From positions 62,001 to 126,000 of the forward strand of contig QCMG01000002.1 of assembly GCA_003213955.1 (NCBI GenBank): a stretch of DNA of 64,000 nt, in the 5' to 3' direction. A program made the position numbers and the translations under genes. Within the stretch, counting starts at the first letter, position 1, and the number at the start of each line of letters is the position of its first letter. Positions 15,948 to 40,801 of this stretch are shown here, one piece after another. The notes below the pieces were generated by a model, which had not been told where the DNA came from, did not search any database, and saw only the letters and a program-made list of their open reading frames with translations. This DNA is from Prochlorococcus sp. AG-418-M08 (GTDB lineage Bacteria; Cyanobacteriota; Cyanobacteriia; PCC-6307; Cyanobiaceae).

Positions 15948-17201
15948 TTAATCACATTTTGGCGCATTTTGTTGAATCCATTGCTTTCCTTTATAAATAG
16001 CTTCATCAAAATTATTCAATCTATTAAATGCAAGCTCCCTAGAAAGATAATTCATAAGTTTTCCTAATGTAGGTCCCTCTTTAATTTCAAAATATTTTTT
16101 TAATATATCGCCTTTTATTAAATTCGAGGGATGAAATAATTTATCATCCTTATTCCTCCATCTTGCGAGCCAATTCATATGAAATGTTTCTGGCAAGAAA
16201 AGAATAAAAGATGGAAGAATAGTTTCTAATTCATTATGCAAATCAAATCTTTCTTTTTCATTAAATTCATCAATATTTTTTTTATCTAGTACTAGTTTCC
16301 ATTTTTTTAGCAATCTTATTTGTGAAATTTCAGATTTGCTGAATGTAAGTTTTTTTAAAGAAAATTCGTCTAAGATTTGAAATAAATAAAATAATGGTAA
16401 AAATTTCTCCTTTTCAAATTGATTAAAATTTTCAAAATTAATTTTGCCTAAATCATTTGATATGCAATCTCTTTCTGCTTGTATATACCCAAAAATTTTA
16501 AATTTATTGATTAAAAATATTGATATAGCAGCATTTTCACCTCGTATTATTCTCTGTATTTCATAATTAATTCTTTCATTAGATACAAGTCTTAACTGAT
16601 TGCTAAATATTTTTATAAGATCTATTAATTTCTCGTCAATATTGAAATTCAATTCAGAAACAAAACGAAAGCATCTTAAAACTCTTAATGGATCGTTTAT
16701 TAAATTTTGTTTTGAATTAGTCCGCAGTAAAAAACGTTGAATATCTGTGATCCCATTTAGTGGATCAATTAATAATTTTTTCTCAAAAGAAAAAGCAATA
16801 GCATTTATTGAAAAGTCTCTGCTAAATAGATCAGAATCTATAGAATGTGAGATTTGGGAAGCGATATCAATTGTTATATGTTTAAAAATGATTCTTACTA
16901 CCTCTCTATTCTCATCAAGAATAATAAATTTACCTTTGAATTCGTCAGCAATTTTTTTTCCAATCCTAATAGCATTTTTTGGAACTACAATATCAATATC
17001 AATATTATTTTTTTCTTTTAATCTTCTTAAAATTAAATCTCTTATGTAACCGCCAACTAAGAAAGATCCAGAAGGTAAAGAAGATAAAATAAAATCCCAC
17101 TTATAAAGTTTGATACTTCTATCTATTTCATGATTTATTAGTGTATGATCTGTAATAAAGCTTTTTTGACAATTTTCTTTCTTGATTATGTGCATTTGCA
17201 T
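15948..17201 (-). CDS. cca: CCA-adding enzyme / poly(A) polymerase family
   Basis: Class II tRNA nucleotidyltransferase that adds or repairs the 3' CCA of tRNA; the tRNA-Asn gene in this window lacks an encoded CCA, so the activity is needed. The 417-aa protein shows GSFLVGGYIRDLILRR and the metal-binding DIDIVV (near residues 46-78), then DPLRVLRCFRF. Its 5' end overlaps head-to-head with ycf34 by 14 bases. No methionine or other usual start lies between residue 3 and the catalytic domain, so the overlap seems real. Confidence 0.88.
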   Translation of the reverse strand: MQMHIIKKENCQKSFITDHTLINHEIDRSIKLYKWDFILSSLPSGSFLVGGYIRDLILRRLKEKNNIDIDIVVPKNAIRIGKKIADEFKGKFIILDENREVVRIIFKHITIDIASQISHSIDSDLFSRDFSINAIAFSFEKKLLIDPLNGITDIQRFLLRTNSKQNLINDPLRVLRCFRFVSELNFNIDEKLIDLIKIFSNQLRLVSNERINYEIQRIIRGENAAISIFLINKFKIFGYIQAERDCISNDLGKINFENFNQFEKEKFLPLFYLFQILDEFSLKKLTFSKSEISQIRLLKKWKLVLDKKNIDEFNEKERFDLHNELETILPSFILFLPETFHMNWLARWRNKDDKLFHPSNLIKGDILKKYFEIKEGPTLGKLMNYLSRELAFNRLNNFDEAIYKGKQWIQQNAPKCD

Positions 17202-17439
17202 TAACTGTAAGTGGGTTGATAGATGTATTACTTATCATGACGTTGAAAACAATCATGGTGTTGAAAACATTTGTGATGCTCCTAATTTTAAAGCAAAACA
17301 ACCTTACATTCATGTAAGTATAGTCAAAGAATTAAATGGTGAATACAAAACTGATTGGGACGTTCAATCTTGTTCAAGTTTTATAGAAGAATACGGGAAG
17401 TGGTCTAAGTGTAAACCTGGTTTAGAATTACCTGTTTAA
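17188..17439 (+). CDS. ycf34: Ycf34 family protein
   Basis: An 83-aa protein found in cyanobacteria and red-lineage plastids. The ATG at 17188 gives the family N-terminus MCICINCKWVDRCITYHDVE, with a CxCxxC group plus later cysteines that in this family bind an iron-sulfur cluster. The role is unclear; reports link it to photosynthetic electron transfer. A TTG at 17182 would add two residues. It is followed by tsaB after six bases and faces cca with overlapping starts. Confidence 0.88.
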   Translation: MCICINCKWVDRCITYHDVENNHGVENICDAPNFKAKQPYIHVSIVKELNGEYKTDWDVQSCSSFIEEYGKWSKCKPGLELPV

Positions 17440-17445
17440 AGGTAG

Positions 17446-18099
17446 ATGACTTATGATTTAAAAAGAAAATCAGATCAATTAACTTTGGCAATTCATAGTA
17501 CTGATAATTCTTTTGGATTCGCCTATAGAGCAAATAACAATGATTTATCTGATCATTTTTTTATAAAAAAATTCGAGAAAGATCTATGTAATCATTTAAT
17601 AATTGATTTTTCAAAATTTATTAAAAAAGAAAACTTTAAGAAAATAAATAAAATATCTGTGAGTATCGGGCCAGCTAATTTTAATGCCTCAAGACAAATA
17701 GTTGTATTAGCAAGAACTCTTTCTCAGCAAATCAACTGTTCATTACATAGCTTTAGTTCATTTGAATTAATGGCAAAAAGAATTGCTAAGAAAAATAATA
17801 TATATTCAGATAAAAAATTATTCTGGATTTTTAAAAAATTGAAGAGAAGAGGATATATTGCAGGCCAATATGAGATCTTAATGTCCGAAAAAACAAAAAA
17901 AATTACCGATATAAAAGAAAGACTAATGCCAAAAATATTTGAAGAATTACAAAATAAACATAATTCTTATCAAGCTGAATTCAATGACGAACAAGATTTA
18001 AAAGAATTATTAAATTTATCTAATAAAAATTCTCAAGACTCAAATTTTAATTCATGGGATAAAGTATTACCTTTATATCCAATATCCCCAGTTAACTAA
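17446..18099 (+). CDS. tsaB: TsaB-like t6A synthesis protein
   Basis: Scaffold partner of TsaD in making N6-threonylcarbamoyl-adenosine at position 37 of ANN-decoding tRNAs. The 217-aa protein shows the ASKHA-fold start LAIHSTDNSFGFAYR and the family block SIGPANFNASRQIVVLARTLSQQINCSLHSFSSFELMA (about residues 73-110), equivalent to the usual GPGSFTGLR region but degenerated. The protein is lysine-rich and diverged. It lies six bases after ycf34 and converges on plsC. Confidence 0.8.
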   Translation: MTYDLKRKSDQLTLAIHSTDNSFGFAYRANNNDLSDHFFIKKFEKDLCNHLIIDFSKFIKKENFKKINKISVSIGPANFNASRQIVVLARTLSQQINCSLHSFSSFELMAKRIAKKNNIYSDKKLFWIFKKLKRRGYIAGQYEILMSEKTKKITDIKERLMPKIFEELQNKHNSYQAEFNDEQDLKELLNLSNKNSQDSNFNSWDKVLPLYPISPVN

Positions 18100-28858: not shown

Positions 28859-29641
28859 TTACTCAAATACTGTATTGATTAAATTTGAATTTTTAGATTC
28901 TGCAAATTCTTCGCTTGCACAATCAATTTGAGATTCATCAGGTAATTCAAGACAATAACCTGCTCCATAAACAGTTTTAATATATGTTGGCTTTCTAGGA
29001 TCGGGCTCTAATTTTGTTCTTAGATGTCTAACGTGCACCCTAATTGTCTCAATATCATCATCTGGCTCATAGCCCCAGACTTCTTTGAGAATAAGTGCTG
29101 GTGATACTGTTTGACCATGTCTTTGTAATAAGCAATGCAGTAGTTCAAACTCTAAATGAGTAAGTCTCACTGGCGATCCAAACCATATAGCCTCAAATCT
29201 TTCTGGGACAAGAGTGAGAGGGCCATAATTTAAAATTTCTTGTTGATTAGATGAATTCAGTTGTGCTCTATTAGTTCTTCTCAATAAAGCTTTAATGCGA
29301 ACATGTAATTCTTCAAGATCAAAAGGTTTTGTTATGTAATCATCAGCACCTGAATTAAAACCAGTCACTTTATCTTTTAATCCACCCAAAGCTGTAATCA
29401 TGAGTATGGGAATATTTGAAGTTCTTTCATCCCTTCTCAACCTTTGACATAATGTCAACCCATCAACATTAGGTAACATTAAATCCAAAAGGATTAAGTC
29501 AGGCGAATACTGAAGTGCAAAAGCTTGACCTTTTATGCCATCTTCAGCTTTTTGAACATCAAAACCAGAATGCTCTAGATGTCCAGCTACCAAATCACGC
29601 ATATCACGATCATCTTCTATTAAAAGGATTGAAATTTTCAT
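28859..29641 (-). CDS. rpaA: OmpR-type response regulator RpaA
   Basis: The main output regulator of the cyanobacterial circadian and day/night program. Using the ATG at 29641 gives 260 aa starting [30 protein letters not shown]; an upstream in-frame TTG at 29662 would add seven residues unlike the family. The receiver has phospho-acceptor D53 (LILLDLMLP). The winged helix ends [13 protein letters not shown]. It shares the long [26 protein letters not shown] segment of RpaA. It faces the island with a 422-base gap upstream. Confidence 0.9.
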
Positions 29642-30063
29642 ATCTATAAATTTATTAAACAAAAATAAGATTTTGGTATTATGATTCTCTCAATAATTTG
29701 CATTTACTGCAGACTTAATGTAAAAACTTTAAAGAGTAAATAATATATAAAAAACTAATGACTCCAAGCTTTTAGAAGAAAATACTAATTTAAAAAATTA
29801 AATAAATTTTATAATTTCTTTTGATTTTTTTAATAATTACTTAATAATTTACTGTAATTCTACAAATAACCACATCACAATTTCATAAAAAATTTGATTT
29901 AAAATATTTATAACAGCTTTAAATTAAGATTATTATTAGCTACCCAATTGAAATCTTTTATTTTTTAAATTAAAATTTTCTTATAAGAAAGCGCGTTTTT
30001 TAGCACCTTAAAATCTTTTTTAAGACTCTAAAAGTCAATTATGTTATAAAAAATTCAACATTT
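29642..30063. other. 422-base gap, no gene seen
   Basis: Extremely A+T-rich DNA between rpaA and the 119-aa gene. No ORF of note was found. A 7-bp stem with a 4-base loop (CTTAAAA-TCTT-TTTTAAG) lies at 30007-30024, and a TTCTTATAAGAA palindrome lies about 40 bases before it. The region must hold the rpaA promoter and probably the promoter for the downstream gene. It marks the left edge of the island. Confidence 0.6.
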
Positions 30064-30423
30064 ATGAAAAAGAAATCTATTACATATGCTGATCTATCAA
30101 AAAAGCAGTTACAACATTTAAAAGAACAATATATTCAAAAAAAAGTTGAATACATGAGTAATAAAGAGTTAAAAGAATTTGTCTTAGAAGTTATTAGCCA
30201 TCAGATAAATAACACTATCGGTCATGAGGAGGAAATGGAAGCATGGAGAGAAATCTCAAATTTTTATGGAGATCAATTTGAGATTATCATTCTTGAAATC
30301 CAACAAAAATATAAGAACAACCAAAACCTAAAAAATTTTGAAGAAGATACTCAAGAGCACAGATTAGAGTTACTTCAAAAGAATAGTATTGAAAAGGAAA
30401 AAGAAGACATGTGGGATGACTAA
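30064..30423 (+). CDS. charged helical protein, unknown
   Basis: A 119-aa protein rich in Lys, Glu and Gln with a predicted helical character throughout, and no signal peptide or membrane segment. Notable are YADLSKKQLQHLKEQYIQKKVEY near the N-terminus and an acidic C-terminus (EDMWDD). No family is recognised. It stands alone between two long AT-rich gaps. The ATG and codon use look real, so it is likely a gene. Confidence 0.7.
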   Translation: MKKKSITYADLSKKQLQHLKEQYIQKKVEYMSNKELKEFVLEVISHQINNTIGHEEEMEAWREISNFYGDQFEIIILEIQQKYKNNQNLKNFEEDTQEHRLELLQKNSIEKEKEDMWDD

Positions 30424-30595
30424 ATAATATTTTCTAATATTCCTTAGAAATAACTAAAATTATTATTTTATTGATTAAATTTAAATAAACAATAAATGAA
30501 GAGAAAATAAATCAAATATATATATAAGAGAATTTATTAATCAGTTCTAAATAAAATGGGTAATTACAAATTTTCTTTTATTGTCCCAAAATTGT

Positions 30596-30624
30596 TTGAC
30601 AACTTAAAAGCATAATGCTTATTT
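30596..30624 (+). promoter_or_regulatory. sigma70-like promoter before the island ABC gene
   Basis: TTGACA at 30596-30601 is followed after 17 bases by TTATTT at 30619-30624 (or TATTTT with an 18-base gap). It lies 78 bases upstream of the first ABC exporter start. A full -35 box is uncommon in Prochlorococcus-like promoters, so it stands out; function is inferred. Confidence 0.35.
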
Positions 30625-30701
30625 TATGGCCGTTTTAATTTAAAATATTGCCTTTTACTACACTTCATTTAAAATATAGATAAGTTCGGTAGTCTAAGTA
30701 T

Positions 30702-32462
30702 TTGATTAAAATATTTGAATTAATATCATATTTAAATAAACATACAAAAAGACAATTTATTTTTATTATATTTGTAATTCTTATAAATTCATTTTTAGAA
30801 TTTATGACTATAGGAACTGTGGTTCCTCTTATATCATTTGTTAGTAATCCAAATAAGATTTCACAGATAGAAGTATTAAAAAGAATTTCAGATTTTTTTA
30901 ATTTTAATCAACCTGATGAATTATTTTTATTTATATCTATTTCATTTTTGATAATAATATTATTATCTGGATTTATAAAGATTTTATGTTTAAAAAAAAT
31001 TAATTTTTTTACAGGAAATCTTAAGGTAGAGTTAGGTGAAAAATTATATAGAGAAATTATATATAAAGATTATCAATATCATTTAAATACAAATTCAAGT
31101 GAATTAATTAATGCTCAAATACAGCAACTAGACTGTTCTCTATCTGCAATTAGTGAATCTTTATATCTTGGACTTTCAGTTCTAAATATAGTAGCAATCA
31201 CTATATCCTTACTTATTATTGATTTTAGGATTCTATGTTTTATTATTACTTTTTCATTTTTGTTCTATTTTATTGCATCTATTACCACAAAAAAATATGT
31301 TGATATTTATGGGAAAATAATTTTTGAAACTAGGAAAAACATTATAAGAGTTGTACAGGAATCATTAGGTTTTATTAGACAAATAATTTTAGATGATTCT
31401 CATAGTTTTTTTATTAAGGAATATAGTAAAAATAATTCTCATAATGTTTTAACTGAAGCAAAGTCTGCCACTATTTCACAGATTCCAAGATACTTAATGG
31501 AATCAATAATACTATCGGGAATTGTAATATCGATTATATTTATGTATTTATCTAGGATTGATTTTTATATCTATTTAACAAAATTTGGGGCATTCATATT
31601 AGGACTACAAAAATTATTGCCTCTTTTTCAAAAAACATTTAGAGCCATATATGCAATACGTCAAGAAAAATTAAGTGTATATTCAGTAGTACAACTTTTA
31701 AAAGAGACTAAAAAAAATAAAAGCAATTCAAGAGATAAATTAGTAAATATTTTCAATCTTAAAAATAATATTAGATTTGAGAATATTAGTTTTTCTTATA
31801 AAGATAATAGAGTATTAGAAAATATAAATTTAGAGATCAAGAAAGGAGAAGTAATTGGTATTGTTGGGAAGACTGGTACAGGAAAGTCAACTTTTATAGA
31901 TATATTATTAGGTTTAATAAGACCAAATTCTGGTCATATCTATATAGATGATAATAAAATGAACTCTAATCTTTTTCGTCGATTTAGATTATCGGTATCC
32001 AGCGTTCCACAAGATTATTTCTTACTAGATAGAACTATTGAAGAAAATATAACTTTTGGAAAATCTAAAGTTGACTACAATTTACTAAATAAAGTAGTTA
32101 ATATAGCAATGTTAAAAGATCTTATAAACTCTCTTAAGTATGGTCTAAAAACTTTTGTTGGGGAGAATGGAGTTAGATTAAGTGGCGGCCAAAAGCAAAG
32201 ATTAGCAATAGCAAGAGCTCTTTATAAAAATCACTCTCTTCTTATACTTGATGAAGCTACAAGTTCAGTAGATTCAGAAACTGAAAAAAATATTCTTAAA
32301 AATATAGTTAATAACAATCCAAAAATAACTGTTCTAATGATTGCCCATAGATTACAAACATTAAAAAATTGCGACTATATCCTTGAAATTAAAAATAAAA
32401 GGTTATTTAAATATCAAAATATAAATCAATACAAAGCAAAAAACATAATAAATGAAAAATGA
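30702..32462 (+). CDS. ABC exporter (PglK/MsbA-like glycan flippase)
   Basis: A 586-aa half-transporter with an N-terminal six-helix membrane domain (about residues 1-330) fused to an ATPase. The ATPase has Walker A GKTGTGKST (near residue 390), signature LSGGQKQRLAIARAL and Walker B LLILDEATSSVDSETE. The membrane domain start (EFMTIGTVVPLISFVSNP) and the end (LGLQKLLPLFQKTFRAIY) resemble PglK-type flippases of lipid-linked oligosaccharides. TTG start. A paralog follows 248 bases later; together with flanking sugar genes this suggests surface-glycan export. Confidence 0.85.
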   Translation: MIKIFELISYLNKHTKRQFIFIIFVILINSFLEFMTIGTVVPLISFVSNPNKISQIEVLKRISDFFNFNQPDELFLFISISFLIIILLSGFIKILCLKKINFFTGNLKVELGEKLYREIIYKDYQYHLNTNSSELINAQIQQLDCSLSAISESLYLGLSVLNIVAITISLLIIDFRILCFIITFSFLFYFIASITTKKYVDIYGKIIFETRKNIIRVVQESLGFIRQIILDDSHSFFIKEYSKNNSHNVLTEAKSATISQIPRYLMESIILSGIVISIIFMYLSRIDFYIYLTKFGAFILGLQKLLPLFQKTFRAIYAIRQEKLSVYSVVQLLKETKKNKSNSRDKLVNIFNLKNNIRFENISFSYKDNRVLENINLEIKKGEVIGIVGKTGTGKSTFIDILLGLIRPNSGHIYIDDNKMNSNLFRRFRLSVSSVPQDYFLLDRTIEENITFGKSKVDYNLLNKVVNIAMLKDLINSLKYGLKTFVGENGVRLSGGQKQRLAIARALYKNHSLLILDEATSSVDSETEKNILKNIVNNNPKITVLMIAHRLQTLKNCDYILEIKNKRLFKYQNINQYKAKNIINEK

Positions 32463-32475
32463 AATTTAAGAAGCT

Positions 32476-32646
32476 ATGAACTTTTGCTCTACAACTCTAA
32501 TTAAAAAAATTTTAAAAAAAACAAGGTTTTTTTATTATGATGAATTCAAGTTTTTTGACAAGAATTATATTGAGTTTAGGGGACATAAAATTATAATTAT
32601 TTTAAATCAACTGGATAGTTGGGTCTTAAAGCAAATAAATTTTTAA
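32476..32646 (+). pseudogene. 56-aa ORF, possible glycosyltransferase remnant
   Basis: An ATG-initiated frame of 56 codons lies in the gap between the two ABC exporters. Its end reads GHKIIIILNQLDSWVLKQIN, which looks like the first strand-helix of a GT-B-type glycosyltransferase, then stops. No continuation of such a domain is apparent downstream before the next gene. It may be a decayed gene start or a chance frame in AT-rich DNA. The glycosyltransferase resemblance is pattern recognition only. Confidence 0.3.
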
Positions 32647-32710
32647 ATATTTTGTATAAATTTAATTTTTATAAAAAGTTAAAAAATAACTCTTTTTATA
32701 TATTTAAAAC

Positions 32711-34516
32711 ATGATGCTAAGCACTCTCTCTAAAAATGATTCACAAGAAAGTATATTTTCTCTATTGAAGTGGCTTTATAAAATTATCTCAAAAAAAAAT
32801 AAGATTAAGCTTTTTAGCTTATTGCTTTTAATACTAAGTTGTGGCTTTTCAGAAGTTTTAGCTATCTCAGCTGTAATACCATTTCTAGACATGCTTTCTG
32901 ATCCAGAAAAAGTAAATAATTATGTATTTTTAATAAAAATTACAAAATTTATTAATTTTCCTAGACCAATTGTGATTAGTGGTTTTTTTCTTATTTTAGC
33001 TAATGTATTAAATCTGTATTTAAGACTTCTAAACATTAAGAAAATAAATCAAGTAACTGCACAATTAGGAAATGAGTTGAGTAATAATTTATTCAGTACT
33101 ACAATTTACCAACCATATAATTATCATCTAAACATTAATAGTAGTGTAATAATTAATGCTGTTGCTGATGACGTACCAAAAACAATAAATGTTTTAAGCT
33201 CAGTAAATGAACTTATTAGTGGATTTATAATCGCGAGTTTTATAGTTTTAACTTTATTGATTATTGATTTCAGGGTTGCATTAATTTCATTAATAGTTTT
33301 TGGTTTGACATATATATTCGTAGCTAAAAGAGCAAATAAAAAATTAGTTAGTAATAGTTTTAAAAGTACACAAGCATCTTCTGATCAAATTAGAATAGTT
33401 CAAGAAACTTTTGATTCGATACAAGAAGTTATTTTATATTCAGATCAAAAAATTTTTTTAAAAGAATACGATGCTAGAGATAAGCCTCTAAGAAAATTAA
33501 GAGCAGAGAATAATTTTATTGCTGTCTACCCAAAATTTATAATTGAGGCATTAGGGATAATTTTCATAATCGTTCTTGGTATGATTTTTTCAATTGACGT
33601 AGAAAATAATATGCTAGCGATAACCTCATTGGGGCTTTTTGCATTGGCTTCACAAAAACTTCTTCCAAGCTTACAACTCATATATAGTTCTTATGCAAGA
33701 ATAAAAGGAAATAAAGCTAGTGTTCAGAGAGTTAAGAATTTATTAATTTCTGATAAATTATCTAGAGAATTAATTTCGGTCAAAGATTATTTATTTAAGG
33801 AAAAATTTGAATTAAAAGATATTAGTTTTTGCTATCCAAATGAAAAACCACTTTTTTCAAACATTAATTTAAATATAATAAAGGGAGAAAAAATTGGATT
33901 GATTGGAAAAACTGGTTGTGGAAAATCAACACTTATAAGCATTATCCTAGGATTATTAGAGCCTAATAATGGTGAAATATTTCTAGATGGTAAATTAATA
34001 AATAGTGTAAAAAATAAGCTTAATTTAACTAAATGGCAGAAATGTATTGGATATGTCCCACAAAAGATTTATTTACAAAATAGATCTTTTGCTGAAAATA
34101 TTGCCTTTGGAGTTAATAAAAAAGAAATTGATTTTCAAAGAGTAATTTATGCCGCAAAATATTCTGAAATTGATAAATTTATTGAAACAACTAAATTTGG
34201 TTATCAGACTAATATTGGAGAAAGAGGTATACAGCTTAGTGGAGGACAAATTCAAAGGATTGCTATTGCTAGGGCAATTTATAGAAAACCCCAAATTTTA
34301 TTTTTTGATGAAGCAACAAGTGCATTAGATATTAATACCGAAGAAAAAATTATTAATAACTTATTTAAAGATGATATTAACTATACAATTTTTTTTATTT
34401 CGCATAGATTACAAACATTAAAACAATGCGATACAATTTACCATTTTAATAAACAAAAGCTTCAAAATGTAAGTTTCAAAGAATTAGATAAAGTTTTATC
34501 TTTTGAAAGTTTATAA
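32711..34516 (+). CDS. second ABC exporter (PglK/MsbA-like)
   Basis: A 601-aa half-transporter, paralog of the one just upstream. Shared landmarks in the membrane domain are AISAVIPFLDMLSDPEK, LIIDFRVALISLIVF and ASQKLLPSLQ. The ATPase has Walker A GKTGCGKST, signature LSGGQIQRIAIARAI, Walker B ILFFDEATSALDINTE and the H-loop ISHRLQTL. It may act as a heterodimer with the upstream protein or export a different glycan. The next gene begins inside its last codons (TTG 34503) or just after its stop (TTG 34518). Confidence 0.85.
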   Translation: MMLSTLSKNDSQESIFSLLKWLYKIISKKNKIKLFSLLLLILSCGFSEVLAISAVIPFLDMLSDPEKVNNYVFLIKITKFINFPRPIVISGFFLILANVLNLYLRLLNIKKINQVTAQLGNELSNNLFSTTIYQPYNYHLNINSSVIINAVADDVPKTINVLSSVNELISGFIIASFIVLTLLIIDFRVALISLIVFGLTYIFVAKRANKKLVSNSFKSTQASSDQIRIVQETFDSIQEVILYSDQKIFLKEYDARDKPLRKLRAENNFIAVYPKFIIEALGIIFIIVLGMIFSIDVENNMLAITSLGLFALASQKLLPSLQLIYSSYARIKGNKASVQRVKNLLISDKLSRELISVKDYLFKEKFELKDISFCYPNEKPLFSNINLNIIKGEKIGLIGKTGCGKSTLISIILGLLEPNNGEIFLDGKLINSVKNKLNLTKWQKCIGYVPQKIYLQNRSFAENIAFGVNKKEIDFQRVIYAAKYSEIDKFIETTKFGYQTNIGERGIQLSGGQIQRIAIARAIYRKPQILFFDEATSALDINTEEKIINNLFKDDINYTIFFISHRLQTLKQCDTIYHFNKQKLQNVSFKELDKVLSFESL

Positions 34517-35411
34517 GTTGAACTCACTAAAAAAGAAAAAAAAGTTACTTATTCTTGGAGGCTCAAGCTTATTAGCTTTTTTGTGGGTAAAAGAAGTTAA
34601 TGATAAATATGAAATCTTTATAACTAAACATAAAAACTGTATCGATTATATGAGTTTAAAAGTTATTGAAATTGATCTTTTTTCAACAAATTCGGTTCAA
34701 AGGATATTGGAATCTTATGAAATAGATATAGTTTTAAACTGCATAGGATTAACTAATATAGAAGCCTGTGAGTACAAACCTGCTGAAGCTTACAGACTTA
34801 ACTCTTATCTACCTGGGATAATTGCAAATGCTTGTAATTGTACTAATACGAAATTGATACATATATCTACGGATCATTTGTTCGATGATGAAAATATTTT
34901 GTATTCAGAAGAAGATGAAGTAAGACTTATAAATGTTTATGCCAAATCAAAATATGAAGGAGAATTAGAGGTTTTAACTAATTGCCAAGCTTCCATAATT
35001 TGTAGAACAAATTTTTTTGGATATGGTCCTGCTCATAAAAATTCTTTCAGCGATTGGATTGAAGAATCAGCTAAAAATAATAAAAAAATAGTACTATTTA
35101 AGGATGTGTTTATTACTCCAGTAAGCGGAAAAAATTTAGCTTTTTATACACATAAATTATTAGAACATAATTTTACTGGTATATTTAATATTTCTTCAAA
35201 TAAACAAATATCCAAATTCGAATTTGGAAAGCTTCTCTGTGAAAAATTAAATATACCTTCTTATTCAATCATACCAGGATTTATAGATGATAGATCAGAT
35301 CTTGTGCAGAGGCCAAAATCAATGGGTTTATCAAATAAGAAATTGACTAAAGCAATCAAAAATCAGAATTTAGGGATTGAAATTCAAATTGGAAGTATTT
35401 TAAAAAACTGA
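34503..35411 (+). CDS. RmlD-like sugar-nucleotide reductase
   Basis: A 302-aa short-chain reductase of the dTDP-4-dehydrorhamnose reductase family. It has a weakened dinucleotide loop (LLILGGSSLLAFLW), NCIGLTNIEACEYKPAEAYRLN, the catalytic STDHLFDDEN serine/threonine region and the YAKSKYEGE Tyr-Lys pair. The GGSSLLA loop departs from the usual GxxGxxG. A TTG at 34518 is an equally good start. The product may be a deoxysugar nucleotide for the glycan of this island; the sugar is not known. It ends before two minus-strand genes. Confidence 0.82.
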   Translation: MKVYKLNSLKKKKKLLILGGSSLLAFLWVKEVNDKYEIFITKHKNCIDYMSLKVIEIDLFSTNSVQRILESYEIDIVLNCIGLTNIEACEYKPAEAYRLNSYLPGIIANACNCTNTKLIHISTDHLFDDENILYSEEDEVRLINVYAKSKYEGELEVLTNCQASIICRTNFFGYGPAHKNSFSDWIEESAKNNKKIVLFKDVFITPVSGKNLAFYTHKLLEHNFTGIFNISSNKQISKFEFGKLLCEKLNIPSYSIIPGFIDDRSDLVQRPKSMGLSNKKLTKAIKNQNLGIEIQIGSILKN

Positions 35412-35449
35412 TAAACACATATTCTTAAATTTTAAATATTAATGATAAT

Positions 35450-36328
35450 TTAAAAAAGATTTTTCAAAAAATAAAAAAAATTTATTATTATTTTTCTTAT
35501 AAAAAAATTGATAATTAAAATAAAATAAGTCATTAATAACGGAATCAAAGGATTTTTTATGGTTTTTCTAAAATAATTTCTTGTTTTGAAATCATTTTTT
35601 ATAAAATTTACAAAATCTTGAATCTTAAGATCTTTATGGTTTTGTAGTTTTGTTTGATAGAAAGATTTATTACTTATAAATAATTTAACGCCATTTTTTT
35701 TTAATAAATTACTATGAATTAGATCTTCACAATAAGCCTTACCTTCAAAACTAAAATATGGATCTTTAATAATATGTTCTTTCCTAATTATAGAGATACC
35801 GCCTGGTATCCAATCCACACTTTCAATAGATTTACTTGAATCAGAAGGTAAATTAGGTGGAATAGCAAAAGTAGATTTTGATATGGTTCCAGGTCTAGGT
35901 TTATAGTCATTATAAAGCAATAAATTTATATATTTTTTGTAAAATAATTCTTTCTTATTATTATTTTTAATAATAAGCCTTGGTGCGATAGATGATTTTC
36001 TTGGCAAATTTTCAAATTGATTTAATAGTATTTTTAAATTTTTAATACTTATAAAAATATCGTCATCCATATGCATCAAATACTCTGTTTTGACGAATTT
36101 ATAACCATATTGTCTTTGATTTACCTGACCTTTTTTATCACTTCTGATAATTAATATTCCCTTATCAAATTTATTTATCAACGTATTTGTTTGAATTAAA
36201 TTTGGAGGAATAGAAATAATTATATTTATTTTTTCCTTTTTAAATCGATTAATTTGATCTATCCATCTTTGATTAATATTACAAAGTAAACTAGGAATAA
36301 TAATTGTTAATTTTTTTAATTCTATCAT
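35450..36328 (-). CDS. family 2 glycosyltransferase
   Basis: A 292-aa GT-A enzyme. It begins KKLTIIIPSLLCNINQRWIDQI, carries the metal-binding LMHMDDDIFISIKNL (DxD, about residues 90-104) and a later WIPGGISIIRKEH acceptor region with a CEDLIHSNLL motif. The C-terminus has a hydrophobic hairpin (residues about 263-292), suggesting membrane attachment. Very Lys/Asn/Ile-rich, like the rest of the island. Probably adds a sugar to a surface glycan. Three bases separate it from the upstream gene on the same strand. Confidence 0.85.
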   Translation of the reverse strand: MIELKKLTIIIPSLLCNINQRWIDQINRFKKEKINIIISIPPNLIQTNTLINKFDKGILIIRSDKKGQVNQRQYGYKFVKTEYLMHMDDDIFISIKNLKILLNQFENLPRKSSIAPRLIIKNNNKKELFYKKYINLLLYNDYKPRPGTISKSTFAIPPNLPSDSSKSIESVDWIPGGISIIRKEHIIKDPYFSFEGKAYCEDLIHSNLLKKNGVKLFISNKSFYQTKLQNHKDLKIQDFVNFIKNDFKTRNYFRKTIKNPLIPLLMTYFILIINFFIRKIIINFFYFLKNLF

Positions 36329-36331
36329 TTA

Positions 36332-37837
36332 TTATTTTTTTAAAATATTATGAAAAACTGATTTCTTTAATTTAATCCGTAATTGATCCAAATCCAGATT
36401 TAATTTAAAAAAGGTTTTATTTAATATATATTCATTATTTTCAGAATATTTATATTTATATATGATTTTGTAAAGATCGACTTCGGATTTTATCGTTTTA
36501 ATAAATTTTGATTTTAATTGCCAAAGAGGATCTGATAAATCATTTACAGAATTCCAACTTAATCTGATTGGTATGCAACCTAATGATATTGATTCAAAGA
36601 CTGCAGTACTTGTTGAATAAATAACATATCTACTTTGTTTTGAATCATGCTGAATTCTAGAATTACTTATTTTAAAGTTATCAATTTTTGGGAATCTTTT
36701 AATAATTTTTTTTCTATTAAATGCTGGATGTAATCTTATCAAAATCTGTAGTTCTGGATATTTTTTAGCAAAATTAAAAGCAAATTTTGTAAAGAAAAAT
36801 ACCTCTTTTTCTTCTCCAGAAGGAATGAATAATATTCTATTATTTATATTTATTTTTATATTATTTGAGTTATTTGATTTAGGAGAACCTAATGTTTTAA
36901 TTGAAATTTCTTTTGATATTTTTTTATTAAAAAAAGCTCTTGAAATATCTCCTGAGACTAAAATAAAATCTGGATCCCATTCTTTTCTTAATAATCTATT
37001 TAAAGAATGTTGATATTTAAAAATTATTGTATGTTGAAATCCTACACAATTTATAAGAGGATTATTTTTTCGAGAAAAATAATAAAATAATCTTTCCCAA
37101 TTATGACCTTCAAAGGTTGTTACTATATTTTTAGATTTAGTATTTTTAATAATATCTCCAATTTGCAATCCATAAATAAAATTACAAAAATTATTTCTGA
37201 ATAAAAAAGATTCAGCGGTGTAAAGAGCTAGATTACTTTTATATCCAGATATATTTTTTGAAAATTGCAGAAACTTATGCCTTTCTCTAAGTAGTGAAAT
37301 TAAAGTTTTAAATTTTGTTTTGAAGCTTGTGATATGTTCATCAAGTATATAACAATCATATCTTTTATTTTTTTTGAGATATTTATTAAATGCTTTTTTG
37401 TTTACTTTAATATGAGGTATAAAGATAAGTAATACGGATAAACCTTTTTCACTGGTTTGATTAATTAAACTGCCAAAATAATTTTCAACTGATGATTCGA
37501 ATTGTTTTTGATTTACAAGATGTGAAATAAAAATAACATCATAATTTTTTTTATAAATCTCTTTTTTATTATCTAATATTTTTTTTTCTTTATTATCTTT
37601 AAAAAAATTTAATAAATTTTTTAATAAAGAAATATAAAAATTCGTTCTCAACTTTAACTTATAAAATAACGAAATATTTTTTAAATTTACTAAAATTCTA
37701 TTATTTTGAATTGTTGGCCTTATTGGATGAAGAAAACAATTGCTAAGTGTATATTGATTGACAAAATTATAATTTATGCATTCATCTGTAAATTTAATAT
37801 ATTCTTTCCATTCCTTAGACGGCTTAATAATTACCAT
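36332..37837 (-). CDS. capsule/surface-carbohydrate GT-B-like protein
   Basis: A 501-aa protein from the ATG at 37837 (a TTG at 37870 would add 11 residues). The C-terminal half looks like a GT-B donor domain: NRILFIPSGEEKEVFFFTKF, then ELQILIRLHPAF, then YSTSTAVFESISLGCIPIRL, a pattern seen in capsule and surface carbohydrate biosynthesis proteins. The N-terminal half contains DVIFISHLVNQKQFESSVENYF. No signal peptide or membrane helix. A polysaccharide glycosyl- or phosphoglycosyltransferase role is inferred; the substrate is unknown. Unusually rich in Lys, Asn and Ile. Confidence 0.65.
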   Translation of the reverse strand: MVIIKPSKEWKEYIKFTDECINYNFVNQYTLSNCFLHPIRPTIQNNRILVNLKNISLFYKLKLRTNFYISLLKNLLNFFKDNKEKKILDNKKEIYKKNYDVIFISHLVNQKQFESSVENYFGSLINQTSEKGLSVLLIFIPHIKVNKKAFNKYLKKNKRYDCYILDEHITSFKTKFKTLISLLRERHKFLQFSKNISGYKSNLALYTAESFLFRNNFCNFIYGLQIGDIIKNTKSKNIVTTFEGHNWERLFYYFSRKNNPLINCVGFQHTIIFKYQHSLNRLLRKEWDPDFILVSGDISRAFFNKKISKEISIKTLGSPKSNNSNNIKININNRILFIPSGEEKEVFFFTKFAFNFAKKYPELQILIRLHPAFNRKKIIKRFPKIDNFKISNSRIQHDSKQSRYVIYSTSTAVFESISLGCIPIRLSWNSVNDLSDPLWQLKSKFIKTIKSEVDLYKIIYKYKYSENNEYILNKTFFKLNLDLDQLRIKLKKSVFHNILKK

Positions 37838-38035
37838 AAAACTATATTTATTAACTCTTAATTGTAGCAATTAAAATTAATTATAAATTTTGTTTATTAT
37901 TTGAAAACTTATTAATTTTTACATTAATTAATTTCTGAGTTAGATTATATAAATTAAGATTTTTCCCATATACACAAAAAATCATTTCTAATCTTTCTTA
38001 ATATCAATTAATAGTAATTAATAGACCTTGAAATA

Positions 38036-38125
38036 ATGGTAAATTCCAAAAACAAAAAAAAGGGCTATCAACCTTTAGAATGGATAGTAAAAGGTTATAT
38101 AAAGAAAAGCATTTGGGATGTATAA
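38036..38125 (+). CDS. 29-aa ORF just upstream of the dehydratase
   Basis: An ATG-to-TAA frame of 29 codons (begins MVNSKNKKKGYQPLEWIV) ends three bases before the dehydratase start. It could be a leader peptide, the remnant of a lost upstream gene, or chance. Its aromatic, ordered composition (YQPLEW, YIKKSIWDV) is unlike random AT-rich translation. No family is recognised. Confidence 0.3.
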   Translation: MVNSKNKKKGYQPLEWIVKGYIKKSIWDV

Positions 38126-38128
38126 ATT

Positions 38129-39145
38129 ATGATTCAGAATAAAAGTATTGAAAATTCGATAATATTAATCACTGGAGGGACTGGATCGTTCGGAAATACT
38201 CTTACTGAACTTCTTCTCAAGAATAATGTTAAAGAAATACGAATATTTAGTAGGGATGAAAACAAACAAGATTTAATGAGAAAAAAATTAAATGACCCCA
38301 GACTTTCTTTTTACATTGGTGATGTCAGAGATTATCAAAGTACCTCTGACGCTTGCATAAATGTTGATTATATTTTTCATGCAGCTGCTTTGAAGCAGGT
38401 ACCATCTTGTGAATTTTATCCTTTAGAAGCATTTAAAACAAATGTTTTAGGAACTGAGAATATTTTAAAGGCTTCCCTAGATAGAGATGTAAAAAAAGTT
38501 GTATTTTTAAGTACAGATAAAGCTGTTTATCCAATAAATGCAATGGGTCTTTCAAAAGCGATGATGGAAAAATTAATGCTTTCAAAATCATTGCACAATC
38601 ATAAAAAGGGTATATTTTGTGCTACTCGTTATGGGAATGTTATTTGTTCAAGGGGTTCTGTAATTCCTTTATTCGTTGATCAAATAAAAAAGAATAAACC
38701 GATCACAATTACTGATCCAAACATGACAAGATATTTAATGAGTTTAAAGGACGCTGTGAGCTTGGTTTTATATGCTTTTAATGAGGGCTTAAACGGAGAT
38801 ATTTTTGTACAAAAGGCTCCAGCATCTACTATCGGAGATCTCGTATTGGCGTTAAAAGAAATATTTAACTATAAAAAAGAAAATATCATAATTGGAACTA
38901 GGCATAGTGAAAAATTTTATGAAACACTTATTTCAAGAGAAGAAATGGCAAGGGTAGAGGATAGAGGTAAATTCTTTAAAGTCCCACCTGATAACAGGGG
39001 GTTAGACTATGAAAACTATTTTACTAAAGGTAAAGAAATCTTGTCAGAAACTTTAGAATATACTTCTCATAATACTAAGAGATTAAAGGTCAATGAAATT
39101 ATAGATATACTTTTAAAAGATGATTTTATCTCAAAATTTTTATAG
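38129..39145 (+). CDS. UDP-GlcNAc 4,6-dehydratase-like (FnlA/CapE/PseB group)
   Basis: A 338-aa extended short-chain dehydrogenase. It has TGGTGSFG (NAD loop, near residue 14), FHAAALKQVPSCEFYPLEAFKTNVLGT, STDKAVYPINAMGLSKAMMEK and the end DNRGLDYENYFTKG. In the Y-x-x-x-K pair the Tyr is replaced by Met (MGLSK), a known trait of this group. Members dehydrate, and often epimerise, UDP-GlcNAc toward FucNAc, QuiNAc or pseudaminic-type sugars. It fits an island that builds an aminodeoxysugar-containing surface glycan. Confidence 0.85.
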   Translation: MIQNKSIENSIILITGGTGSFGNTLTELLLKNNVKEIRIFSRDENKQDLMRKKLNDPRLSFYIGDVRDYQSTSDACINVDYIFHAAALKQVPSCEFYPLEAFKTNVLGTENILKASLDRDVKKVVFLSTDKAVYPINAMGLSKAMMEKLMLSKSLHNHKKGIFCATRYGNVICSRGSVIPLFVDQIKKNKPITITDPNMTRYLMSLKDAVSLVLYAFNEGLNGDIFVQKAPASTIGDLVLALKEIFNYKKENIIIGTRHSEKFYETLISREEMARVEDRGKFFKVPPDNRGLDYENYFTKGKEILSETLEYTSHNTKRLKVNEIIDILLKDDFISKFL

Positions 39146-39170
39146 TAGACAAATTTAGAAGAATTAAAAT

Positions 39171-39193
39171 AAGAGGGCATTTGTTTGCCCTCT
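39171..39193 (-). terminator. hairpin, terminator-like
   Basis: AAGAGGGCA pairs perfectly with TGCCCTCTT across a 5-base loop (TTTGT). On the minus strand it is followed by ATTTTAATTC, a weak T-tract; on the plus strand there is no T-tract. It lies 26 bases after the dehydratase stop and may insulate both directions. The structure is clear, the direction is not. Confidence 0.5.
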
Positions 39194-39324
39194 TCGAGTC
39201 TTGCTCACTTCCTTGTCTACAAAGTCGGGGAAGAACTTTACTCCTAAATTATTTCTACTCCTCTTATATGGGAAAAGATAGTCATGACAACCACAAAGCA
39301 CTAATACTCGAGTAAAAATACCCT

Positions 39325-39423
39325 ATGAATTTCAAGTCAAAAGGAGGAAAATATAAGTGTAGATATAGGAGGTCTTATGAAACTCATTACTCCTTTCACT
39401 ATTCTCAATCGAAAATTCAATGA
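39325..39423 (+). CDS. 32-aa ORF overlapping the 49-aa ORF
   Basis: An ATG-to-TGA frame of 32 codons reading MNFKSKGGKYKCRYRRSY and on, rich in Lys, Arg, Tyr, Ser and His. It overlaps the 49-aa frame in another phase, so at most one is likely real. It has no ribosome binding site of its own. Its basic aromatic composition is unusual. Reported as an alternative, not as a favoured gene. Confidence 0.2.
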   Translation: MNFKSKGGKYKCRYRRSYETHYSFHYSQSKIQ

Positions 39424-39526
39424 AATGGATTTGATTTTAGATGCAATGAAGAATAGAAGATTAGCGACTAAAAGATTGCACGATGATTATAGAAAAATGT
39501 GCAAAAATTATGAATTTGCCTATTGA
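39377..39526 (+). CDS. 49-aa ORF with consensus ribosome binding site
   Basis: An ATG frame of 49 codons (starts MKLITPFTILNRKFNEMDLI) preceded four bases upstream by AGGAGG, a near-perfect Shine-Dalgarno, rare in this genome type. A second AAGGAGG lies about 25 bases further up. The protein is small, basic and helical (DAMKNRRLATKRLHDDYRKM). No family is recognised. The strong binding site and position near a tRNA suggest a horizontally acquired small gene. Confidence 0.5.
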   Translation: MKLITPFTILNRKFNEMDLILDAMKNRRLATKRLHDDYRKMCKNYEFAY

Positions 39527-39537
39527 AAATAGGCGTT

Positions 39538-39735
39538 CTATTCACATTGCTTATTGTTCAATCTGTTGAACATACATTTGCTGTTCATGACCATTCCTTT
39601 GTAGTCGGGAAGATTTAGTTCTTTCAACCAGATAGAAATTTCCTGAGCAGCATCAGACTTTTTAGGCATATAAAAAATGAACTCTTTAGAGGGTTCTATT
39701 ACTAGATGAGGAGGTATCTTGACTGATGTTTTCAT
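39538..39735 (-). CDS. 65-aa protein, unknown
   Basis: An ATG-started 65-aa frame reading MKTSVKIPPHLVIEPSKEFIF, then DAAQEISIWLKELNLPDY. It is soluble, has two cysteines in the C-terminal part and no known domain. It converges on the 49-aa ORF with 11 bases between. The AT-rich upstream (rc ATTTAAATT) could hold a promoter. Probably a small island-edge gene. Confidence 0.45.
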   Translation of the reverse strand: MKTSVKIPPHLVIEPSKEFIFYMPKKSDAAQEISIWLKELNLPDYKGMVMNSKCMFNRLNNKQCE

Positions 39736-39933
39736 AATTTAAATATTATCTAGTTGTTTTTTTTTGCAAACAAAATATCTTGGACGTTTAACCGAAAAGG
39801 ATGGAGTCCAGAAGTTGCCTAAAACACATTTTTTAAAAGGCTACAACACATAAAAAACACATTTTCATCCAAAAACCTGAACTACTATGAAAACCTGTAA
39901 TTCATGAGATATGACAACAAGACCAGTTATTCC

Positions 39934-39959
39934 AATAAAAAAGACCCTTTTGAGGTCTT
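39934..39959 (-). terminator. rho-independent terminator of tRNA-Asn
   Basis: On the minus strand AAGACC pairs with GGTCTT across a 7-base loop and is followed by TTTTATT. It lies 28 bases beyond the tRNA-Asn 3' end, in the right direction. A classic stem plus T-tract, one of the few clear terminators in this window. Confidence 0.75.
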
Positions 39960-39987
39960 ATGGTCATCTAATGATCTTGTAATTGAA

Positions 39988-40059
<72 letters not shown>

Positions 40060-40108
40060 TTATATTAAAACTTAACCCTTCAATGTCCCATATGACAAGG
40101 GGTGATCA

Positions 40109-40801
40109 TTAATTATATTGAAAGTTTAATGGTTTTTGCCAATCTGATAAATTTCCATTCTTCATCTCTGCAACTGCATCTGAGTAATCTAATTCCTCTA
40201 GACGATGCGTAATCCATAAGGCAGTAAATGGATTACTTTTATTGTTTGTAAGTTCTTTAACTATTTCTAAAACTTTTAATTGACTAGAACTATCCAAAAG
40301 GGAAGTCGGCTCGTCCAAAAGAACAAAATTCTTATCACTAATCAAGGAACAAGCAATAGTCAAACGTTGTTTTTGGCCACCACTTAGAGTGTGGATAGGC
40401 CTTTTATCAAATCCATTTAATCCAACTTTCTTCAATACAAAATCAATTTTTTTGGTGATATCTTCTCTGCTTAATTTTTTATTAATATTTAGAAGAAGTT
40501 CGCTCCTGCAGTTTGGCATTAAAATTTGATGATCAGGGTTTTGAAAAACCATCCCAACATTAGCTAAATTATTAATAACTCCATTTGTTGGTTTAAGAAT
40601 TCCATTAATTAACTTAAACAAGGTACTCTTGCCACAGCCATTTTTACCGACAATCATCCATAAGCCTGGCTTTTTAATAGAGAAATTACAGTTATATATT
40701 ACGTGCTCTTTTTTGCCCGGCCATGAAAAATTCACATTTTTAAAGTCTATAATAGGTTCTTGATTTAAAAAATTATCCTCGCTTTCAGCCATATTAAACA
40801 T
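40109..40801 (-). CDS. CbiO/EcfA-like ABC transporter ATPase
   Basis: A 230-aa stand-alone ATPase. Walker A is GKNGCGKST (near residue 53), Q-loop VFQNPDHQILM, signature LSGGQKQRLTIA and Walker B FVLLDEPTSLLDSSSQ, with an H-loop TALWITHRL. The NPDHQ type Q-loop points to the cobalt/ECF vitamin group. No membrane partner is adjacent, so its transporter is unknown. Its start is at 40801 or 40792; with the first it overlaps the UPF0367 gene by eight bases. Confidence 0.85.
   Translation of the reverse strand: MFNMAESEDNFLNQEPIIDFKNVNFSWPGKKEHVIYNCNFSIKKPGLWMIVGKNGCGKSTLFKLINGILKPTNGVINNLANVGMVFQNPDHQILMPNCRSELLLNINKKLSREDITKKIDFVLKKVGLNGFDKRPIHTLSGGQKQRLTIACSLISDKNFVLLDEPTSLLDSSSQLKVLEIVKELTNNKSNPFTALWITHRLEELDYSDAVAEMKNGNLSDWQKPLNFQYN

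Follow-up and report, generated by a model that had tools for sequence, protein, structure and literature searches.

Background

In Prochlorococcus, an abundant ocean phototroph, surface-polysaccharide islands are reportedly linked to phage resistance, as Coleman in 2006 and Avrani in 2011 are said to have described. In addition, according to two sources, the tycheposons are cargo elements of Prochlorococcus that target tRNA genes and carry a tyrosine recombinase (PMC10872708, PMC10187409); seven tRNA genes are their targets, tRNA-Met being the one named (PMC10872708), and a picocyanobacterial integrase element with a small serine recombinase is placed at tRNA-Phe/tRNA-Cys (PMC10187409). Here we analyse a variable interval beside a tRNA-Asn(GUU) gene of Prochlorococcus sp. 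AG-418-M08, lying in a stretch of 64,000 nucleotides (GenBank assembly GCA_003213955.1, contig QCMG01000002.1, positions 62,001 to 126,000 of the forward strand) which is called the window below and to which all coordinates refer. An earlier note on this DNA had proposed, at 29642-39200, a surface-glycan island bounded by rpaA and a tRNA gene. On the whole, the locus is a true island of a known kind, tiny elements docking at the tRNA are its unexpected part, and the earlier note is right on place and class, and wrong on the edges and in taking AT-richness as a sign of recent transfer. With a probability of roughly three in four, the interval between a DUF7326 gene and tRNA-Asn(GUU) is a cargo slot that is kept variable by inserts at the tRNA 3' end, with two layers in the window and with glycan genes of the surface type.

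The interval between DUF7326 and tRNA-Asn

The relatives compared are genomes of the same genus, and the homologue searches cover 200 of them; genomes are given by number, the window's own being G000. From 40 genomes, chosen non-randomly as the best regulator matches and the most complete genomes, we took the DNA that extends from the regulator gene toward the island, up to 18 kb per locus. Among these, 38 loci reach the right side and are closed by tRNA-Asn, and all interval counts use these 38; another 12 site loci were examined besides the 40. The features that frame the interval in the window are as follows.

28859..29647, minus strand: rpaA-type (OmpR-type) response regulator with Response_reg and Trans_reg_C domains; conserved left flank, outside the variable block
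30064..30423, plus strand: DUF7326 gene (PF24012); conserved, marks the left edge of the variable block
39988..40059, minus strand: tRNA-Asn(GUU), the integration target, its 3' end facing the island
40109..40801, minus strand: ECF-type ATPase gene (ecfA); conserved right flank

The regulator is found in 159 of the 200 genomes at E 1e-100 (own included), and DUF7326 stands directly after it in all 40 fetched loci. Since DUF7326 is kept throughout, the variable block begins after 30423, and the regulator, at which the left edge had been set, is ruled out as its border. The OmpR type of this left neighbour is borne out, and the name rpaA is unconfirmed, the best NCBIfam model being RpaB with 207 bits, below the cut-off of 330. 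On the right, tRNA-Asn is present in 38 of 38 closed loci with its 3' end toward the interval, and it is the sole match in the window at the Rfam gathering threshold; the ECF-ATPase, hyp89 and cysK genes occur in all 38 loci reaching the right side, with the ATPase gene split in one. The tRNA had been correctly placed on the right; the edge itself lies at 39987 and not at 39200. The variable stretch is 30424-39987.

From DUF7326 to the tRNA 3' end, the interval measures less than 400 bp in 16 of the 38 loci and 548 bp to 10.5 kb in the other 22, and it measures 22.5 kb in G025. The gap between regulator and ecfA, tabulated for the 121 genomes (own included) with both matches on one listed contig, so that genomes absent from either match listing, or whose two genes lie on separate contigs, are left out, ranges from 959 bp to 23.4 kb, with 46 genomes below 1300 bp. 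The content differs among strains as strongly as the length. We find a nitrite/sulphite-reductase-type gene with a formate/nitrite transporter gene in G105 (L040:4175-7615), restriction-helicase-type cargo in G144, MrcB_N/NOV_C-type cargo in G128, an integrase in G050, a polysaccharide lyase in G015, MORN repeats in G060, and a radical SAM gene with a cytidylyltransferase gene in G182; many cargo proteins have no family match at all. Glycan-type clusters occupy the slot in G004 and G025 and, by homology to G025, in G094 and G022. Gene content conserved across all relatives, which would have spoken against an island, is not what the comparison finds. Conserved flanks, variable content and empty sites are those of an integrative hotspot at a tRNA gene, and glycan genes in a variable tRNA-linked interval are those of a Prochlorococcus surface-glycan genomic island.

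Copies of the tRNA end and integrases at the site

The 3' end of tRNA-Asn, CTCCCCGGGCG, has 16 extra copies (att copies) within the intervals, which total 101,084 bp, 0 copies in the 568,854 bp outside the intervals of the same 38 loci (one strand), and 0 copies in 100 Markov resamplings. It recurs in 13 of the 22 filled intervals and in none of the 16 near-empty ones. Because the copies lie inside filled intervals and nowhere else in the loci, the tRNA is the integration site. In 8 of the 13 intervals the outermost copy stands less than 400 bp from DUF7326, at the place taken by the tRNA itself in empty sites, and in the remaining 5 it lies further in; a copy of the tRNA 3' end, 11-14 bp long, borders many inserts. 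Among the 12 further site loci, extra copies are present in G112, G093, G008, G198 and G021 and absent in G028, G031, G158, G124, G032, G133 (empty) and G051. Elements are stacked in G144, G050, G112 and G198. A tRNA 3'-end copy at the far side of inserts is a feature of the relatives and not of the window; att copies in the window were considered and rejected, only the tRNA itself being found.

The site also has its own enzyme in the relatives. A protein of 439 amino acids (aa) in G050 matches the Pfam phage-integrase N-terminal domain and PHROG integrase profiles, and its relatives are found in 20 of the 200 genomes at E 1e-15. Those of G021, G189 and G111, 64-66% identical to it, lie beside the regulator or ecfA at the site, and that of G035 (64-66%) shares a contig with ecfA and lies 13 kb from it, toward the island, so that five full-length integrases map to the site, G035 indirectly. 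G022 keeps a 65% C-terminal integrase fragment inside the interval (65-69%). More distant integrases are at the site in G082 (38%) and G179 (34%), and elsewhere in G027 (40%), G175 (35%) and most weaker cases; those of G098, G142 and G034 are left unplaced, the site being not closed in these genomes. Judged by eye, all 8 aligned rows have the tyrosine recombinase residues Arg and Tyr, and 7 of the 8 have HxxR. A relative of the small serine recombinase accompanies the integrase in the elements of G050 and G021. Beside 12 integrase loci, ARAGORN reports no tRNA within the short loci. A site-associated integrase of the tyrosine type is thereby found in the relatives; there is none among the island genes of the window, nor in its genome at E 1e-15.

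From these data the following mechanism may be proposed. The integrase would recombine the tRNA end with a copy carried by the element and so dock the element there, restoring the tRNA and leaving the displaced copy at the far side; elements having no integrase would need a helper.

The glycan cassette

The part of the variable stretch next to DUF7326 carries the cassette listed here, with functions named from profile matches.

30702..32462, plus strand: ABC1, PglK/MsbA-like exporter in which membrane and ATPase parts are fused
32476..32646, plus strand: 56-codon remnant matching the C-terminus of a 553-codon G025 gene; deletion scar
32711..34516, plus strand: ABC2, second PglK/MsbA-like exporter
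34503..35411, plus strand: RmlD-like nucleotide-sugar reductase (PF04321, E 2.8e-40)
35450..36328, minus strand: family-2-like glycosyltransferase, GT2 (PF00535, E 1.2e-7, above cut-off)
36332..37870, minus strand: SurfPS, surface-carbohydrate-type protein, perhaps a glycosyltransferase (TIGR04396, E 7e-6, 25 bits, far under the cut-off of 125)
38129..39145, plus strand: FnlA/CapE-like UDP-GlcNAc 4,6-dehydratase/5-epimerase (TIGR04130, E 6.7e-144, 479 bits, under the cut-off of 730)

Six glycan genes and two ABC exporters had been counted in the earlier note; there are six intact genes in all, namely two ABC exporters and four glycan-type enzymes. The long gaps and mixed strands it described are confirmed, with four gaps of about 250-840 bp and genes on both strands. 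Its claim that the block is richer in A, T, Lys, Asn and Ile stands for 30424-38128, where the G+C content (GC) is 0.229 against 0.310 in the rest of the window and below every segment of the same size clear of 29600-40100 (mean 0.314, sd 0.013, minimum 0.294). GC at third codon positions is 0.119-0.185 in five block genes (mean 0.198 and minimum 0.148 in 54 outside open reading frames, ORFs), and the Lys+Asn+Ile fraction is 0.30-0.39 in block genes (outside ORFs: mean 0.249, maximum 0.367). Extended to the whole of 29642-39200 the claim fails, for the FnlA-like gene has a GC of 0.302 and 39146-39987 one of 0.324, neither being AT-rich. A second, milder dip (0.25-0.27) is seen at 16001-18000, with genes that read by eye as ordinary housekeeping genes.

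Most likely, the products of the six genes synthesise a surface glycan and export it. In this scheme the FnlA-like enzyme and the RmlD-like reductase would act on nucleotide sugars, the two transferases would assemble them, and the two ABC proteins would flip or export the product. ABC2 gives a near full-length match to the PglK structure 5c73, and both exporters score 265.6 and 305 bits with the PglK equivalog NF050066 (cut-off 1000), which places them in the same kind and not in the equivalog itself. The RmlD-like protein has 137 bits with TIGR01214 (dTDP-rhamnose reductase RmlD), under the cut-off of 224. The FnlA-like protein matches 4j2o and CapE 3vvb almost end to end (residues 7-335 of 338 on 4j2o, E 1.8e-129). 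With the FnlB-type model NF047837, which passes its cut-off in 0 of 14 control genomes, the best score in the own genome is 24 bits (cut-off 500), and with no FnlB over the cut-off the sugar is uncertain. A surface-chemistry role of the island is plausible from these matches, and so, by extension, might be an altered phage receptor as its effect.

SurfPS is the rarest of the six, being found in 3 of the 200 genomes (own included), one of them, G026, having it at another locus. It has no Pfam match, and its profile meets no solved structure up to E 1. The predicted structure is weak (pLDDT 49.6), as are its fold matches, which are to polysialyl- and sialyltransferases (best Foldseek hit 5wcn, E 1.5e-4, TM-scores 0.18 and 0.23), so that the modelled fold is perhaps a hint of a glycosyltransferase only. 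In a scan of genome contigs for SurfPS, AG-388-F11 (G026) is the only one confirmed among the matches listed. Scans of viral contigs with patterns for SurfPS, for the 65-aa ORF of the small element described below and for the tRNA end are all empty, pattern scans detecting close relatives only.

Two side observations concern sugar genes elsewhere. In the own genome, a second sugar-gene region on contig C3 (G000, C3:28924-37804) contains RmlA over its cut-off, an Epimerase_2 gene and, by eye, a CMP-sugar synthetase-like ORF. In G026, the relatives of RmlD, GT2 and SurfPS (40-46%) at the other locus are beside ORFs resembling, by eye, KdsA, KdsB and KdsC; names given by reading would suggest a KDO-like sugar in that variant.

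As to the history of the cassette, the window at 30643-39117 aligns with G025 in three collinear pieces of 81.6-82.8% identity, the flanks having 81.9 and 83.9%. G025 has an extra 8.4 kb with GT61, a DegT aminotransferase, an epimerase, RmlA-type and RmlB-type genes, a methyltransferase and most of the 553-codon gene, and a further 4.8 kb close to the tRNA. The gene of about 553 codons, a remnant in the window, is kept in G025 and G051, and G051 has it without the GT61-to-methyltransferase stretch. Since the window retains only the 3' end of this gene, part of its difference from G025 is a deletion in the window. ABC1 has orthologues at the same site in G051, G022, G094 and G025, and GT2 has homologues in G025 and G026. 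Synonymous divergence (dS, by NG86; without the regulator comparisons to G095, G106 and G015, in which the alignment runs over a stop) is 0.45-0.68 for six cassette genes against G025 and 0.42-0.96 for six flank genes. The ratio of nonsynonymous to synonymous divergence (dN/dS) is 0.09-0.33 for cassette genes against G025, and 0.41 for ABC2 against G051. Core-like dS together with low dN/dS argues that the cassette has been kept by selection and not recently imported; judged from these ratios, purifying selection appears to act on the surviving genes.

The small element of the window

Between the FnlA-like gene and the tRNA lies an element of quite another age.

39162..39987, no strand: miniature tRNA-Asn element of 0.83 kb, integrase-less, with two small ORFs; left end and left att missing
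39538..39735, minus strand: 65-codon ORF of the miniature element
39941..39959, minus strand: terminator-like hairpin just downstream of tRNA-Asn, within the right end of the element; consensus match

The window at 39147-39987 is 91.5% identical to an element of 952 bp in G092 and 89.8% to one of 988 bp in G182, over 840 columns (95.2% over 706 bp locally), whereas the six flank genes match these two genomes at 72.6-82.0% only. The similarity begins at 39162, and FnlA abuts the truncated left side. The small element is a younger arrival, with about 90% identical copies in genomes whose flanks stand at 73-82%. The window slot is two-layered, consisting of an old, partly deleted glycan cassette and this younger miniature element. 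In terms of the mechanism, the outer layer would be an old AT-rich cassette that a small group of relatives inherited together with the flanks and that deletion has shortened here, and the inner layer a younger miniature element lacking its left end.

The 65-aa ORF occurs in 13 of the 200 genomes (own included). Its six best matches outside the own genome are beside tRNA-Asn (G182, G092, G116) or tRNA-Phe (G137, G073, G022), and for six weaker homologues (L052-L057, 41-49%) there is no tRNA in the short loci. A tRNA-Phe 3'-end copy is seen in G137 (L049) on the far side of the ORF, about 1.15 kb away, and none is seen in the 3-kb loci of G073 (L050) and G022 (L051); distant homologues in G122 and G081 lie a few kb from the regulator. 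PHROGs give no match for the small ORFs. The pattern scan for the hairpin returns 3 sites in 2401 bases, 1.0 being expected in shuffles.

Miniature elements at the tRNA

Overall, we cut 23 complete att-bounded elements from 18 loci, 13 of these being among the 40 and 5 among the 12 further loci, namely those with more than one tRNA-end copy. They range from 169 bp to 10.3 kb, with 12 of the 23 at or below 1034 bp (169-1034), and only two contain an integrase, 21 being without. After removal of att, the left ends are similar in 26 of 253 pairs as compared with 54 of 10,500 random internal pairs, a loose control with unmatched positions. They form five groups with 18 members, leaving 5 single; the right ends, the truncated copy of the window included, form five groups with 20 members, leaving 4 single. 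The integrase-bearing elements of G021 and G050 share a left-end group with those of G107 (169 bp) and G128 (1.9 kb), and a right-end group only with another G050 element. A 226-bp element of G137 has both ends in common (about 89%) with the 3.4-kb restriction-type element of G144.

These data suggest, as a tentative idea which we do not yet hold to be the probable one, that marine picocyanobacteria carry integrase-less mini-elements (about 170-1000 bp) which dock at tRNA-Asn in trans, like miniature inverted-repeat transposable elements (MITEs). Such an element would begin with a conserved left end of some 105 bp, hold a tiny cargo open to exchange, and finish beside the tRNA in a right end, likewise conserved, of about 110-180 bp. 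There would be several end families, at least one left-end family being common with integrase-bearing elements, and the elements would stack in tandem, cross distant clades and share cargo with a tRNA-Phe element. The idea is weakened by the fact that only one of the five left-end families has an integrase-bearing member in the sample, the other four groups having none.

Alternative explanations

Several points count against reading the interval as a slot filled at the tRNA end. The window interval contains no second att copy, only the tRNA itself, and 9 of the 22 filled intervals likewise have none; no copy is found in the filled G031, G124 and G032, nor in the stretches seen of G028, G158 and G051. 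The cassette carriers G051, G022, G094 and G025 show no att at the outer edge, that of G028 being off its contig. At E 1e-15 the own genome lacks any integrase relative, in the integrases elsewhere the catalytic residues are judged by eye with the second His unclear, and no FnlB-type reductase over the cut-off is found in the own genome, with a model passing in 0 of 14 controls. In the flank trees, G051 groups with the window on the left (22 taxa) and falls into the non-carrier clade on the right (25 taxa; ultrafast bootstrap 99), a placement that would reflect either import by homologous recombination or a chimeric draft.

Of the other explanations, the one that survives best is that the cassette has been swapped by homologous recombination via the conserved flanks, in the manner suggested for replacement islands of the O-antigen type, with docking elements merely sharing the slot; we regard it as a serious candidate at somewhat less than even odds. 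Both the missing outer att in the four carriers whose edge is visible and the divided placement of G051, with a regulator 95% identical to that of the window, fit such a swap, but G051 is a draft 69% complete with its two flanks on different contigs, and the other carriers form one clade in both flank trees, weakly (ultrafast bootstrap 76 left, 79 right), as vertical inheritance would have it.

It is possible, if doubtful, that an integrase-bearing element of the tRNA-Asn type brought in the cassette and that the outer att and the integrase of this element were later lost to decay. The C-terminal integrase fragment of G022 (65-69%) shares its interval with ABC1, GT61 and RmlB, and the glycan cluster of G004 is beside an att-bounded element; however, the G022 fragment is nearer to the tRNA than the glycan genes are, and could have been inserted later. 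No carrier has an outer att, so that integrase delivery of the cassette is at most conjectural.

We consider it unlikely that the cassette is an ancient inheritance which one group retained and all others lost, without any transfer. Core-like dS, collinearity with G025 and the deletion scars in the window would all suit such a history, but SurfPS, with its 3 genomes of 200 (own included) and one of the three at another locus, would not, and the unrelated cargo at the same site (nitrite genes, restriction-type genes, integrase) suggests gain.

Lastly, the view that the AT-rich composition marks recently arrived foreign DNA, for which a GC under every same-size outside segment could be cited, is very improbable, and AT-richness as proof of recent transfer, as the earlier note had implied it, is rejected, because the G025 counterparts are collinear, have a GC of 0.20-0.25 too (FnlA apart) and have diverged like the flanks with core-like dS, and because the demonstrably recent element is not AT-rich (0.324).

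Comparison with known systems

For the cargo slot ending at tRNA-Asn(GUU), what began as a guess from base composition has become a docking site that is mapped, with its empty sites, its att copies, its integrase group and the ends of its elements defined; its boundary at a tRNA, as the earlier note had it, is upheld by the variable interval, the near-empty sites, the tRNA-end copies and the integrases found there. Which enzyme opens the slot, whether the tiny elements move in trans, and whether a change of cassette affects phage adsorption become directly testable questions. If the idea of mini-elements is true, they would explain how the slot stays open for glycan, defence and nutrient genes. 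Among the papers listed in our literature searches, no title or opening of an abstract names the tRNA-Asn slot or its miniature elements, and, as the original tycheposon work (Hackl 2023) may describe them, no priority is claimed; the miniature elements may be new, the tRNA island being of a known kind.

Compared with the ISL-type islands of Prochlorococcus, the locus is alike in being variable, linked to a tRNA and equipped with glycan genes, and differs in being an extra slot at the regulator/tRNA-Asn site, with another sugar region on contig C3 of the same genome. Like the tycheposons, the elements here are cargo elements targeted to a tRNA, but 21 of 23 have no integrase and 12 of 23 do not exceed 1034 bp; an integrase within the element, as in a tycheposon, is absent from the window, and none is found in the genome at E 1e-15. 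The element at tRNA-Phe/tRNA-Cys shares the combination of an integrase and a small serine recombinase in a variable tRNA-side island (G050, G021), the target here being tRNA-Asn and the likeness one of gene content and setting. With the fnlABC system (FucNAc capsule or O-antigen) there is in common the FnlA-like match to 4j2o, whereas the partner FnlB is not found over the cut-off of a model passing in 0 of 14 controls. MITEs are short, gene-poor, non-autonomous elements with inverted repeats and target-site duplications. The miniature elements resemble them in being short and gene-poor and in having some ends in common with larger, enzyme-bearing relatives, and differ from them in that they dock at a single tRNA end and have direct att copies in place of inverted repeats and target-site duplications.

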